Shown piece by piece: positions 221 through 21,224 of a stretch of 42,988 nucleotides of DNA (the stretch's first letter is position 1; each line of letters opens with the position of its first letter). Origin of the DNA: Gemmatimonadota bacterium (lineage in GTDB: Bacteria; Gemmatimonadota; Gemmatimonadetes; Longimicrobiales; Gaopeijiaceae); NCBI GenBank assembly GCA_028874995.1, contig JAPPGM010000075.1:1-42988 (forward strand). Direction: 5' to 3'. Position numbers and translations under genes: made by a program. The notes beneath the pieces are model-generated. The model saw only the letters and a program-made list of their open reading frames with translations, ran no database searches and was not told the origin of the DNA.

Positions 221-280
221 CCCGCCCGCCCGTCGCCGCGGCAAAACCAGGGACACGAGCATGTCGGAATGGGACGCCCC
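221..280 (+). repeat. Dispersed ~59-bp repeat, copy A (downstream of recA)
   Basis: This single copy of a repeat family also seen at 20456-20588 and 21165-21224 ends 3 bases from the recA stop. The shared pattern is a C/G-rich lead (CGCCCGCCCG), then CGCCGCGGCAAAAC, then AGGGACA, GCATGT and finally ATGGGACG. It lies in the plus orientation, opposite to recA. It has no obvious reading frame. The element is not strongly palindromic, which separates it from classical REP sequences. Confidence 0.75.
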
Positions 281-283
281 CCC

Positions 284-1378
284 TCAGACCACCTTCACCG
301 CCGGCCCCTCATCCCCACTCTCCTGCTCCTCTTCCTCCCGAATCCCCAGCGCCACCAGCAGCCGGCCCTCGATCTCCCCCGCCACGTCCCGGTTCTCCTT
401 GAGGAATGTCCGCACATTCTCCTTGCCCTGTCCCAGCCGCAGATCCCCATACGAGAACCACGACCCCGACTTCTCGACGATCCCGTGCTCCACGCCGATG
501 TCGATCAGCAGCCCCGTGTGGCTGATCCCCTGACCGTACAGGATGTCGAATTCGGCCTGCTTGAAGGGCGGTGCGCACTTGTTCTTGACCACCTTGACGC
601 GGGTGCGGTTTCCGATCACCTCGGGCCCGTCCTTGAGGGCCCCGATGCGGCGGATATCCATGCGCAGGGAGGCGTAGAACTTGAGTGCGCGGCCGCCCGA
701 CGTCGTCTCGGGGCTGCCGAACATGACGCCGATCTTCTCGCGGATCTGGTTGGTGAAGATGACCGCCGCGTTGGAGCGGCTCACCGCGCCGGTCAGCTTC
801 CTGAGCGCCTGGCTCATCAGCCGCGCCTGCAGGCCCACGTGCGAATCGCCCATCTCGCCCTCGATCTCGGCCCTGGGCACCAGCGCCGCCACCGAGTCGA
901 CCACGATCACGTCCACCGCGTTGCTGCGGATCAGCACCTCGGCGATCTCCAGCGCCTGCTCGCCCGTGTCGGGCTGCGAGACGAGGAGGTTGTCCACGTC
1001 GATCCCGAGCTTGCGCGCGTACTGGATGTCGAGCGCGTGCTCGGCGTCGATGAAGGCCGCGATGCCACCGTCGCGCTGCGCGTTGGCGATCACGTGGAGG
1101 CAGAGCGTCGTCTTGCCCGACGACTCCGGTCCGTAGATCTCACTGATCCGTCCCTTGGGAACCCCGCCCACCCCGATCACCGCGTCGAGGTTGATCGCCC
1201 CGGTGGAGATCGCGTCGATCTGGAGATTGGCGCCCTCGGCGCCCATGCGCATGATCGCGCCGCGTCCGTACGACCTCTCGATCTGGGTCAGGGCCGTGTT
1301 GAGCGCCTTCTCCTTCTGCTGCTTGTCCTTGCCGTTCGTGGTGGACGTCCTCTTGCTGGACATCGGCTGTCTGGGCAT
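284..1378 (-). CDS. recA: Recombinase RecA
   Basis: RecA is the ATP-dependent strand-exchange protein of homologous recombination and the co-protease that triggers LexA cleavage. The 364-residue product has the Walker A motif GPESSGKTT at residues 83-91. It also carries the canonical core ([19 protein letters not shown], then [19 protein letters not shown]) and an acidic C-terminal tail rich in Glu. The ATG at 1378 is preceded by AGAGG about 10 bases upstream, whereas the ATG at 1363 lacks a ribosome site. The gene stands alone. No recX follows; its 3' end abuts a dispersed repeat. Confidence 0.98.
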
Positions 1379-1426
1379 CTGATGGAACCTCTTCCTCGCG
1401 GCGGGGGGTTGTCTGTATCAATACCG

Positions 1427-1454
1427 AAGATAACACGAAACCTATCCGGGTCAA
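1427..1454 (-). promoter_or_regulatory. Candidate sigma70-type recA promoter
   Basis: On the minus strand, TTGACC (1449-1454) is separated by 16 bp from TATCTT (1427-1432), about 50-70 bases before the recA start. Just downstream lies GTAT-TG-ATAC, a small inverted repeat that could be an operator. I do not recognise a LexA box of a known type. Confidence 0.5.
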
Positions 1455-1612
1455 GGTCGATGGAGGCGCGATCCGCGCCCGCCTTCGCGGCACCGCTCCA
1501 CCCACCCCGGAACCCCGGAACCGTTTCCGATGCAGCCAAGCTACCTTCTATTGATGGGCGCATACATGTCAGAATCGGCCAACCTTCACAGAGACCTTCG
1601 ATAGAACCCCCA

Positions 1613-3040
1613 ATGGGCCAATCCTCCTCGCAAATCCACGAATACGACCTCGTCGCGATCGGCGGCGGCACCGGCGGTCTGGTCACGGCCGCCGGCGCGG
1701 CCTATCTCGGCATGAACCCCGCCATCGTCGAGAAGCACGCGCTCGGCGGCGACTGCCTCTGGACCGGCTGCGTTCCCTCGAAGGCCCTCATCGCCTCCGC
1801 CCGCCTCGCGCGCCAGATGGACCGCGCCGCCGCCCTCGGCCTCACCCCCAACGCCGCCCGCCACGACTTCCGCGCCGTCATGGAACGGATGCGGGCCGCG
1901 CGCGCCACCGTCGCCCACCACGACGACCCCGAACGCTTCCGCAAGATGGGCGTTGGCGTCCACTTCGGTGCCGCGCGCTTCCTCGATCCCAACACGGTCG
2001 AGGTGGACGGCGAGGGCACCCTGCGCTCCAAGCGTTTCGTCATCGCCACGGGGGCGGTGCCCGCCATCCCCCCCATCCCCGGCCTCGCGGACCTCGACTA
2101 CTGGACCTACGAGACCGTCTTCGACGAGAACGAGCTCCCCGACTCGATCGCGATCATGGGCGGTGGGCCCATCGGGGTCGAGTTCGCGCAGGTCTTCGCG
2201 CGGCTGGGGTCGAAGGTCACCATCCTCGAGATGATGCCCAGGATCCTGATCAAGGAGGACCGGGATGTGGCGGCGTACATGCAAGACCTCCTCGAAGCGG
2301 AGGGGATCGCGGTCCGCACCGGGGCCGGTGTGAGTCGCGTGGGCTCGAAGAACGGGCGCGCGGTGCTCGAGACGGACGACGGAGGCCGCATCGAGGTGGA
2401 CCGGGTCTTCGTCGCGACCGGGCGGCGCCCCTGCATCGACGGTTTGGACCTTGACGCCGCCGGGATCCGGACCGGCATGGGCGCCGTCGTCGTCGACAGT
2501 TACCTGCGGACCAGTTCCAAATCCGCATGGGGCGTGGGCGACGTGGCCGGAGGGCTCCATTTCACGCACGTCGCGGAGCATATGGCCAAGGTGGCGCTCC
2601 GCAACTCGGTCCTCCCCGCGAGGACGAAGATCCGCTACGACAGCGTGCCATGGGTCACCTACACCGACCCCGAGGTCGCGCACATCGGCATGTCGGAGGA
2701 TGAGGCGACCGACGCCGGCGGCACCACGTACCGCTACGAAATGGACGACCTCGACCGCGCCATCGTGGACGGTTCGGCGGTCGGATTCGTGAAGATCTCG
2801 GCGGACCGCAAGGGCAAGGTGCTCGGCGCGACGATCGTCGCCCACGGCGCGGGCGACCTTCTCATGCCGCTCGTCCTCGCCAAACAGCACGGCCTGAGCC
2901 TGAGCAAGGTCAACGGCACCATCTACCCCTACCCCACCATGGTCGAGGGCGTGAAGCGCGCCTCGGGCGAATACATGCGCTCGCGCCTCGACACGGCCGG
3001 GGGAAGGACACTTAAGCGGATCATCCAATGGCTGAAATAG
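1613..3040 (+). CDS. MerA/Lpd-like FAD-dependent pyridine nucleotide-disulfide oxidoreductase
   Basis: This is a class-I flavoprotein disulfide reductase of 475 residues with the usual order: FAD-binding GGGTGG (residues 17-22), a redox-active C48-x4-C53 pair in GGDCLWTGCVPSK, an NAD(P)H-binding GGGPIGVEFAQ segment, ATGRRP, and the second FAD motif GVGDVAG. The C-terminal dimerisation domain reads YPYPTMVE where lipoamide and glutathione reductases have the catalytic HPT...E, so the base His is replaced by Tyr while Glu remains. There is no N-terminal heavy-metal domain and no C-terminal Cys pair, so it is not a true mercuric reductase. Its stop overlaps the start of the VTT-DUF547 gene by 13 bases. 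In other bacteria similar flavoproteins are found next to or fused with VTT proteins. The substrate is unknown. The ATG at 1613 is chosen because homology starts there; no clear ribosome site is seen. Confidence 0.88.
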   Translation: MGQSSSQIHEYDLVAIGGGTGGLVTAAGAAYLGMNPAIVEKHALGGDCLWTGCVPSKALIASARLARQMDRAAALGLTPNAARHDFRAVMERMRAARATVAHHDDPERFRKMGVGVHFGAARFLDPNTVEVDGEGTLRSKRFVIATGAVPAIPPIPGLADLDYWTYETVFDENELPDSIAIMGGGPIGVEFAQVFARLGSKVTILEMMPRILIKEDRDVAAYMQDLLEAEGIAVRTGAGVSRVGSKNGRAVLETDDGGRIEVDRVFVATGRRPCIDGLDLDAAGIRTGMGAVVVDSYLRTSSKSAWGVGDVAGGLHFTHVAEHMAKVALRNSVLPARTKIRYDSVPWVTYTDPEVAHIGMSEDEATDAGGTTYRYEMDDLDRAIVDGSAVGFVKISADRKGKVLGATIVAHGAGDLLMPLVLAKQHGLSLSKVNGTIYPYPTMVEGVKRASGEYMRSRLDTAGGRTLKRIIQWLK

Positions 3041-20566: not shown

Positions 20567-20568
20567 CG

Positions 20569-20588
20569 GGCCGTCCCATTTTGACATG
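20569..20588 (-). repeat. Dispersed ~59-bp repeat, partial tandem copy D3
   Basis: Only the CATGTCAAAATGGGACGGCC end of the unit is present. It is exactly 59 bp from the same word in D1 and stops nine bases short of the HNH fragment's stop codon. The truncation marks an edge between repeat array and endonuclease fragment. Confidence 0.7.
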
Positions 20589-20596
20589 GCGCCTGA

Positions 20597-20989
20597 TCAC
20601 GCCACCGCCTCCAGCGCCGTGAGTTCCAGTTCCAGCGGGACTTGGGAGTCCGTGAACCGGGGAGCACCGTATGACAGCTGACCGCGAGGAGGGGCCGGAG
20701 GCTCCGGCAGTTTCCCCGCCGCCTCGGGCAGCGGCGGCGCGCCCCCGATCACCCGGCCCGCCCGCGTGAAGAACGCGGCCTTGCCGTCACGGTCGAGCGC
20801 CATGCGCGTCCCACCCTCGTGGACGAGGCGATGGTGGCGCCGACAGAGCAGGATGGTGTTGGCCAGACTCGTCTCGCCCCCATCGGCCCAGTGCTTCACA
20901 TGGTGGGCCTCGGTGAAGCGGCTCGCGCATCCGGGGTAGCGACAGCCGCGGTCCCGTTCCTCCAGCGCGCGGCATAGCAGAATCGGCCT
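20597..20989 (-). pseudogene. Remnant of a DUF222/13E12-type HNH endonuclease
   Basis: About 130 C-terminal residues of an HNH nuclease remain: RALEERDRGCRYPGC, then HHVKHWADGG, then NTILLCRRHHRLVHEGG. The Cys pair and the HNH ligands are intact. Full-length relatives have a ~200-300-residue DUF222 region before this. Here the upstream frame, open only to a stop near 21143, gives unrelated sequence dominated by DNA hairpins, and no good start precedes the motif. It is therefore a 5'-truncated copy. A GTG at 20899 would yield a peptide that omits the first Cys pair. It lies between inverted-orientation repeat copies. Confidence 0.75.
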
Positions 20990-21081
20990 GTGATCAGACC
21001 ACTTGGGACGGTGATGCTCGAATCGCCCGATGGATCGGGCACACGGGACTGTGACCTCGGCCGGCGAACCGGCCTGATCAC
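20984..21081. repeat. Hairpin cluster upstream of the HNH remnant
   Basis: Perfect stems occur at 21025-21040 (GCCCGAT-GG-ATCGGGC) and 21059-21074 (GGCCGG-CGAA-CCGGCC). The word TGATCA recurs at 20991-20996 and 21075-21080. The 10-mer GCCTGATCAC at 21072-21081 is repeated exactly at 20591-20600, on the other side of the HNH remnant. This looks like a structured end of a mobile or degraded element rather than coding sequence. Confidence 0.5.
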
Positions 21082-21164
21082 CGGCCGGGCGTTTCCGGCG
21101 ACCGATGAGATGAGGGACAGCTTGGCGGCCGACCCACTACTCCCGGCGGATGTTCAAAACGGAC

Positions 21165-21224
21165 CGCCCGCCCGCCGCCGCGGCAAATCAAGGGACACCG
21201 GCATGCTGGATTGGGACGCCCCCC
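21165..21224 (+). repeat. Dispersed ~59-bp repeat, copy B
   Basis: This is a plus-orientation copy with CGCCCGCCCGCCGCCGCGG, CAAATCAAGGGACACC, GGCATGCTGG and TTGGGACGCC, ending 13 bases from the stop of the propeller lipoprotein gene. It has the same placement and relative orientation as copy A at recA, and opposite orientation to the tandem array at 20456-20588. Confidence 0.75.

Follow-up and report, generated by a model that had tools for sequence, protein, structure and literature searches.

A dispersed repeat unit marks the outward-facing ends of a one-gene DUF222-HNH element in Gemmatimonadota

What is a short repeat that recurs a few bases past stop codons? In a 42,988-nucleotide stretch of a Gemmatimonadota contig (JAPPGM010000075.1; hereafter the window), a first-pass annotation had placed five copies or part-copies of a ~59-bp repeat at three loci and proposed targeting, or a role in 3'-end processing or termination. 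All five were found at matching coordinates. The unit itself is ~40 bp long, with the consensus CCGCGGCAA n5-6 GGGACR n3 GCATG n6 TGGGAC and a GGGAC-to-GGGAC spacing of 21 bp, and 58-61 bp is its period in arrays. A 26-base core pattern, with up to three mismatches allowed, matched three times in the window, each time without mismatch, against 0.02 matches expected. With up to two mismatches it matched 45 times in the whole 4.5-Mb genome and once as a reversed control, bearing out the description of a dispersed multi-copy family; 38 of these matches have no mismatch or one, and several of the seven with two are apparently unrelated. A blastn search with a 66-base unit listed 47 matches in the genome, the last few of them weak, and the 40-base pattern had no exact match in viral contigs. 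Units are of two types, L and R, which are distinct across species, and contig C42 carries an inverted pair of ~145 bp without a gene. Within the 59-bp arrays the spacers are similar to one another, which speaks against a CRISPR array. We rejected a palindromic site centred on GCATGC: among 123 distinct units, 12-mer symmetry averaged 3.07 of six pairs, below the 3.47 of shuffled sequences, in agreement with the earlier reading that the unit is not clearly palindromic and does not fit classical REP/BIME elements.

The copies in the window are better described as two loci than as the three claimed. One is a solo R-type unit (236-275, plus strand), with a GC-rich spacer from about 221, lying between the contig's left end and the host gene recA (284-1378, minus strand; Pfam RecA). 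The other joins the remaining copies in a single decayed element of 761 bp (20457-21217), whose outward-facing ends are the tandem array (20457-20589) and the copy at 21178-21217. Its R end comprises, on the minus strand, a degenerate outermost unit (20457-20495, from unit alignment), a full R-type unit (20514-20553, a core match) and the 3' half of a third (about 20569-20589, read directly), which lies ~8 bases past the stop codon of an HNH gene. What is left of this gene (20597-20980, minus strand) is the HNH and C-terminal part of a DUF222-HNH protein (query residues 316-441, 87% identity); it lacks the DUF222 part, and its HNH part is a below-cutoff Pfam match only. A further minus-strand remnant (20981-21163), from the element's 5' region between gene and L end, resembles by eye its counterpart in the contig C172 copy, and the outward-facing L-type unit (21178-21217, plus strand; core match and direct reading) forms the upstream end. 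It adjoins a host gene of 409 aa (21238-22467, minus strand) with below-cutoff Pfam matches only, the best being DUF5128 (6-bladed beta-propeller). Minus-strand stop codons do lie 3, 8 and 13 bases from the units, as annotated, but the stop at 20597 is that of the element's own nuclease gene, so the array does not simply lie beside a host stop codon.

The complete layout is seen in relatives within the genus: an L unit lies upstream of the gene on the opposite strand and an R unit past the stop codon. We counted units around 29 DUF222-HNH genes of the genus (≥60% identity; contig-edge gene fragments of G000 and the genes of G012, G014, G019, G026 and G031 excluded). Outward units lie upstream of 22 and downstream of 19 of these genes, inward units upstream of three and downstream of two, and both ends were recognised at 13. 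Leaving out five loci that had been fetched for holding a unit gives outward units at 18/24 upstream and 14/24 downstream, and inward units at 2/24 on either side. The pattern found no upstream unit at seven of the 29 genes and no downstream unit at ten, sequence being missing for three of these; four paralogues of 42-45% identity in the genus had no outward units. An inverted-repeat test drawing on 80 loci (28 of them without flanks) exceeded the best of 30 shuffles at 10 of 19 loci of the element's own lineage (≥65% identity, or fragments thereof) and at one of 33 others (L229, 33 vs 31); the inverted repeat at L160 is not a unit. Unit distance tracks protein distance for L units (Mantel r 0.46, 0/2000 permutations, n=22) and for R units (r 0.17, p 0.0055, n=21), in tests that include a few poor unit matches and leave shared ancestry in. 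Across 23 genomes, with paralogues and fragments counted in, the numbers of units and genes are only moderately correlated (Spearman 0.45, p 0.03), and G021 and G027 have the gene with no match to the one-mismatch unit pattern. By blastn, the G029 element had no match in a plasmid collection.

The gene between the units encodes a candidate for the enzyme that moves them. In all three relatives scanned, Pfam DUF222 and HNH were both over cut-off, and no other Pfam domain, known transposases included, was. In G032, a single 4.09-Mb contig, we read nine copies at different places; all eight with an open frame retain the HNH motif, and their median dN/dS is 0.16 (28 pairs, range 0.08-0.28; L169 excluded for its broken frame), so purifying selection acts on the nuclease gene among the copies of a single chromosome. 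For the N-terminal 211 residues, a predicted model (pLDDT 90.9) returned ParB/Noc/KorB DNA-binding domains in all top 13 rows of a fold search, with Z from 10.9 to 7.0 and rmsd 2.0-2.8 over 93-103 aligned residues (best row: Z 10.9, rmsd 2.2, 101 aligned); the first unrelated row had Z 6.3. The matched domain is small and helical, a case in which, by the tool's own warning, Z up to about 13 can arise by chance, and for the whole model Foldseek E-values all exceeded 0.05. The DUF222 part is predicted to fold like a ParB/Noc helix-turn-helix DNA-binding domain. Structure matches of the HNH part include EcoKMcrA (Z 8.1) and IscB (Z 8.0).

Do the solo units move? The first-pass annotation had proposed comparing empty with occupied orthologous sites, and both kinds exist. 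A flank search of ten insertion sites found base-level empty sites at two, both of solo units, and at none of the four gene-bearing elements searched. Of the six solo-unit sites, S3 and S4 are those with clean empty sites; the unit at S1 proved to be an element's L end, the gene of that element being present in G015; S2 gave no alignment past the unit; and S5 and S6 are a single locus. One clean insert, of 81 bp, is in G020, its orthologous site being empty in G013, G015 and G024; the other, of about 115 bp, is in G013, with empty sites in G015, G020, G023 and G024. Since these inserts stand at otherwise intact orthologous sites, a small module has moved. Each includes 16-40 bp either side of the unit that are seen in no other copy, and one falls, by our reading of the frame, within a coding sequence at its 3' end. 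The two empty sites show no consistent target duplication: one has a possible 4-bp GAGG, the second nothing clear. Of 30 solo-unit loci in G013, G015 and G020, most are at positions common to these species, so movement is rare. In G029 and G014, too, solo units lie in the gap downstream of recA; G033 has one there in the opposite orientation.

On balance we favour a reading in which the unit forms the outward-facing ends of a one-gene element of ~1.8 kb, whose DUF222-HNH nuclease mobilises both the element and solo units. Binding of the unit would probably fall to the ParB/Noc-like helix-turn-helix domain in the N-terminal part of the nuclease, and cutting at that place to the HNH domain; cutting and repair would copy the whole element to new places and, acting in trans, a single unit elsewhere. 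Solo units such as the one near recA would then be non-autonomous derivatives, standing to the element as REPs stand to RAYTs. ParB-type domains are known for binding palindromes, and the unit is not palindromic, which counts against this reading.

The HNH gene may instead be cargo, with a standard transposase acting in trans to move an element that ends in the units; for the window's clade, the block of unit, gene and unit would be moved by an IS-like carrier whose ends read ...GTGACATGACACTAG. We think this unlikely, although it has several observations in its favour. Many copies in G000, G014, G028, G029 and G031 have outer flanks in common, many in the window's clade are enclosed in this IS-like carrier, a second element that may have spread them, and a GTGACATGACACTAG-like sequence occurs in 15 of 19 loci scanned (≤3 mismatches; some matches are internal, in one locus the sole match). 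Decayed frames in these flanks appear to resemble IS630 transposase. Against this, two carrier-flank fragments match no Pfam family, the flanks are not seen in the stretches examined around the G032, G033, G027 and G030 elements and the window element, and a dN/dS of 0.16 would be unusual in inert cargo.

Less probable again is a role of the units in regulation or defence, as operators of the DUF222-HNH protein or sites to which it binds, with solo units as decayed ends or host-selected sites that are immobile alone. The predicted ParB-like fold would suit such a role, as would two units upstream of a 54%-identical gene in a Gemmatimonadota MAG (L192). Orthologous solo units also differ less in their unit blocks (15/390 positions) than in their flanks (144/929; p 1e-10), a comparison that is biased because nearly all orthologues were found via the unit match. 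Solo inserts at otherwise intact orthologous sites show, however, that the small module has moved, and no PADLOC defence family matched.

That the unit is an RNA-level 3'-end element, a terminator or processing signal, as its spacing from stop codons might suggest, is very improbable: 20300-21400 has no terminator-like site and 1-700 has one, at 149-163, outside the unit; 18 solo units have a mean fold z of -0.8 alone and -0.4 with flanks (two single units are below -2.5), no better on average than shuffles, so that a termination role is without support; window units score +1.2 to +1.7; the window and five loci gave no Rfam match; and the recA gap holds both orientations in different species.

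The system most like this one is that of REP/REPIN sequences and RAYTs, in which, as far as the consulted sections of two papers describe it, a nuclease gene lies between two inverted units, sometimes of two types, with solo, tandem and inverted-pair copies dispersed (PMC2817692, PMC3116915). Here too inverted units flank a nuclease gene and further units are dispersed, but the nuclease is DUF222-HNH rather than a Y1 HUH transposase, the unit is asymmetric and has no hairpin, and copies number in the tens instead of the usual >100. RAYT-driven REPs were rejected as a candidate: the Y1 transposase family PF01797 had no match in G000 (96.7% complete), and the same search was positive in five of 14 control genomes. 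IS elements with DDE transposases and their MITEs share terminal inverted repeats and a gene-less inverted pair, as on C42, but here the gene has DUF222 and HNH as its only Pfam domains, and no consistent target duplication was seen at the two empty sites. Free-standing HNH homing endonucleases likewise place an HNH nuclease gene between genes; homing genes are not known to have inverted units at their flanks, to leave solo offspring or to reach about ten copies per chromosome. Mycobacterial REP13E12 elements share multi-copy DUF222-HNH genes in one genome, and DUF222 and HNH in one protein; the consulted portions of two papers treat them as repeats without defined function and do not mention terminal units (PMC10589994, PMC13061034).

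We tentatively suggest, at somewhat less than even confidence, a new class of mobile element, in which an HNH endonuclease with a ParB/Noc-like domain mobilises its own element and, in trans, ~40-60-bp REP-like repeats, convergent with REP/RAYT through an unrelated enzyme. If the nuclease does move the units, REP-like repeats have arisen alongside two or more unrelated enzymes. With terminal units that are defined, offspring without a gene, selection on the nuclease and a DNA-binding fold predicted for it, a repeat that had no defined function becomes a testable system: the protein, the site it probably recognises, and DNA to serve as donor and as target. DUF222-HNH genes are present in several phyla.

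All five copies of the ~40-bp unit are present in the window where the first-pass annotation had placed them, and its expectation of a dispersed family is borne out genome-wide: a 25-base core pattern has 45 matches at up to two mismatches in the window's own genome, G000 (4.52 Mb in 191 contigs; the window is nucleotides 1–42,988 of contig G000:C171, 73.6 kb). Of these matches, 38 have no more than one mismatch, and the reversed pattern gives 1 match. Scanning 121 genomes of the family at up to one mismatch returned 209 matches in 25 genomes (2 in total for the reversed control), of which 201 fall in the window's genus, in 19 of its 23 genomes. 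The named relatives are Gemmatimonadota MAGs, one being Candidatus Palauibacter. An assembly artefact had been raised as an alternative. Many G000 copies do end at contig ends, as expected where near-identical genes break assembly; the same elements are present in the one-contig genomes G032 and G033, so they are not artefactual. In another genus, locus L048 (G004:C4) holds a unit and part of an HNH gene, which shares 92.6% identity with that of G029 over 108 aa, adjoining the outer flank found at G029:C30; this reflects either transfer or a contaminated bin.

The units form the two ends of an element carrying a DUF222-HNH nuclease gene. R-type units read GGGAC[AG]-nGA-GCATGTC..AATGGGAC, the GGGAC core of the first one starting 35–111 bases after the gene's stop codon; L-type units read GGGACA-nnn-GCATGCTCG..TGGGAC (often ending TGGGCG in G032, G027 and others) and lie about 0.2–0.7 kb upstream of the gene start. 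As the L units are on the opposite strand and the R units past the stop codon, both face outward. An intact G029 element, L079, comprises an L unit at 3209 on the minus strand, a 442-aa DUF222-HNH gene at 3701–5029 and an R unit that extends to 5086. The window retains a 761-bp remnant, with the tandem array as R end, the copy at 21178 as L end, and only the codons matching residues 316–441 of the gene. The solo copy at 236–275 is R-type.

Unit and HNH gene are very probably linked. Among 29 HNH genes examined from the genus (at least 60% identity), outward units occur upstream of 22, downstream of 19 and on both sides of 13, and inward units upstream of 3 and downstream of 2, absent flanks (L061 upstream; L293 and L294 downstream) being scored as no unit. 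L061 and four G029 loci were originally chosen for carrying a unit; without these five (n=24), the counts are 18 upstream and 14 downstream for outward units and 2 and 2 for inward ones. Four paralogues in the genus at 42–45% identity have 0 outward and 1 inward unit, and 31 DUF222 genes elsewhere have 3 and 1 outward and 0 and 3 inward, roughly the shuffle level. In one of those 31, L192 from a different Gemmatimonadota MAG, two outward units, 62 bases apart, precede the gene.

Units without the gene have moved. Solo-type units number 22 in G013, 16 in G015 and 19 in G020 (control 0), and most of 30 loci drawn from them are at sites common to these species. The comparison of occupied and empty orthologous sites called for by the first-pass annotation yielded two empty sites at base level. 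At S4, G020 carries an 81-bp insert, by our reading of the frame in frame within the 3' end of a gene and with a possible GAGG duplication; G013, G015 and G024 are empty. At S3, an insert of about 115 bp separates two gene ends in G013, and G015, G020, G023 and G024 are empty. Each insert is one unit plus 16–40 bp per side that is absent from every other copy inspected. Across nine shared sites (13 pairs), 15 of 390 block positions differ, 18 of 195 other unit positions and 144 of 929 flank positions, figures that overstate constraint because nearly all members were included only if recognisable. At L087 (G020:C73, 2960–4356), two identical, directly repeated solo units enclose ~1.35 kb containing a 408-aa frame of ATPase-like appearance; the orthologous site has one unit and no insert in G015, and one unit plus a degenerate one in G013, as if units acted as recombination sites. 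One gap in several species (L280, L041 on G000:C15, L042 on G000:C184, L261, L278), next to what we take to be a SAM riboswitch, holds HNH elements or solo units; G000:C15 and G000:C184 may be two ends of one element, reversed relative to G033.

Pfam identifies DUF222 and HNH in the protein; PADLOC gave no match and NCBIfam only sub-threshold matches (IscB and PT-DNA restriction). Eight G032 copies (first 421 to 435 codons) have dN/dS of 0.08–0.28 (median 0.16), and the HNH motif is preserved in all eight; the reading frame is broken in a ninth copy, L169, which stood outside this set. Predicted models reach pLDDT 77 for the whole protein, whose Foldseek E-values exceed 0.05, and 90.9 for the N-terminal 211 residues. 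The top 13 structural matches of the latter, with Z falling from 10.9 to 7.0, are all DNA-binding domains of ParB, Noc and KorB, and the highest-ranking unrelated match scores 6.3; helical domains can, as the tool warns, reach high scores by chance. A viral library gave one unnamed match below 0.001. The modelled ParB-like domain may recognise the units, after which the HNH domain would cut and repair would copy in either the element or just one unit. We lean slightly towards this mechanism as a whole, and give the nuclease roughly an even chance of being the mobiliser of the units. Within a unit, the two GGGAC blocks are 21 bp apart with GCATG in between, a spacing that would fit contacts on one helix face. 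In the accessible parts of the open-licence literature we recognised no description of a unit-flanked HNH element, an absence that is weak evidence. REP13E12/DUF222 sequences are named as repeats (PMC10589994, PMC13061034), without defined function (PMC13061034), and RAYT features are described in PMC2817692 and PMC3116915.

Many elements of the G000/G014/G028/G029/G031 group have outer flanks in common, which end in GTGACATGACACTAG-like sequence, and an IS-like carrier with such ends surrounds many HNH elements (L077, L078, L080, L013, L019, L064 and others). We presume this carrier to be IS630-like, an identity for which Pfam gave no confirmation. Within this group, the carrier may have multiplied blocks of unit, gene and unit; other elements inspected, outside the group, are without carrier flanks. 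In the window, the gene next to the L end (21238–22467) belongs to a large paralogous family, with 102 matches in its own genome.

Downstream of recA, a gap compared across 23 genomes and followed by what appears to be alaS, solo R units occur in G000, G029 and G014, and G033 has one unit in the opposite orientation; no unit was recognised in this gap in the other 19. The intergenic sequence is too diverged to give base-level empty sites here. Past the recA-side unit, the contig start (window 1–175) carries another dispersed repeat family (GCATTCGAnCGGCGnTGCATCCG, with sequence resembling GGAGCAACGCAGAGCGAAG close by), which has 19 matches in the window and the loci examined, some being the same place twice. 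In G025 (L118), too, copies of this family are located downstream of recA.
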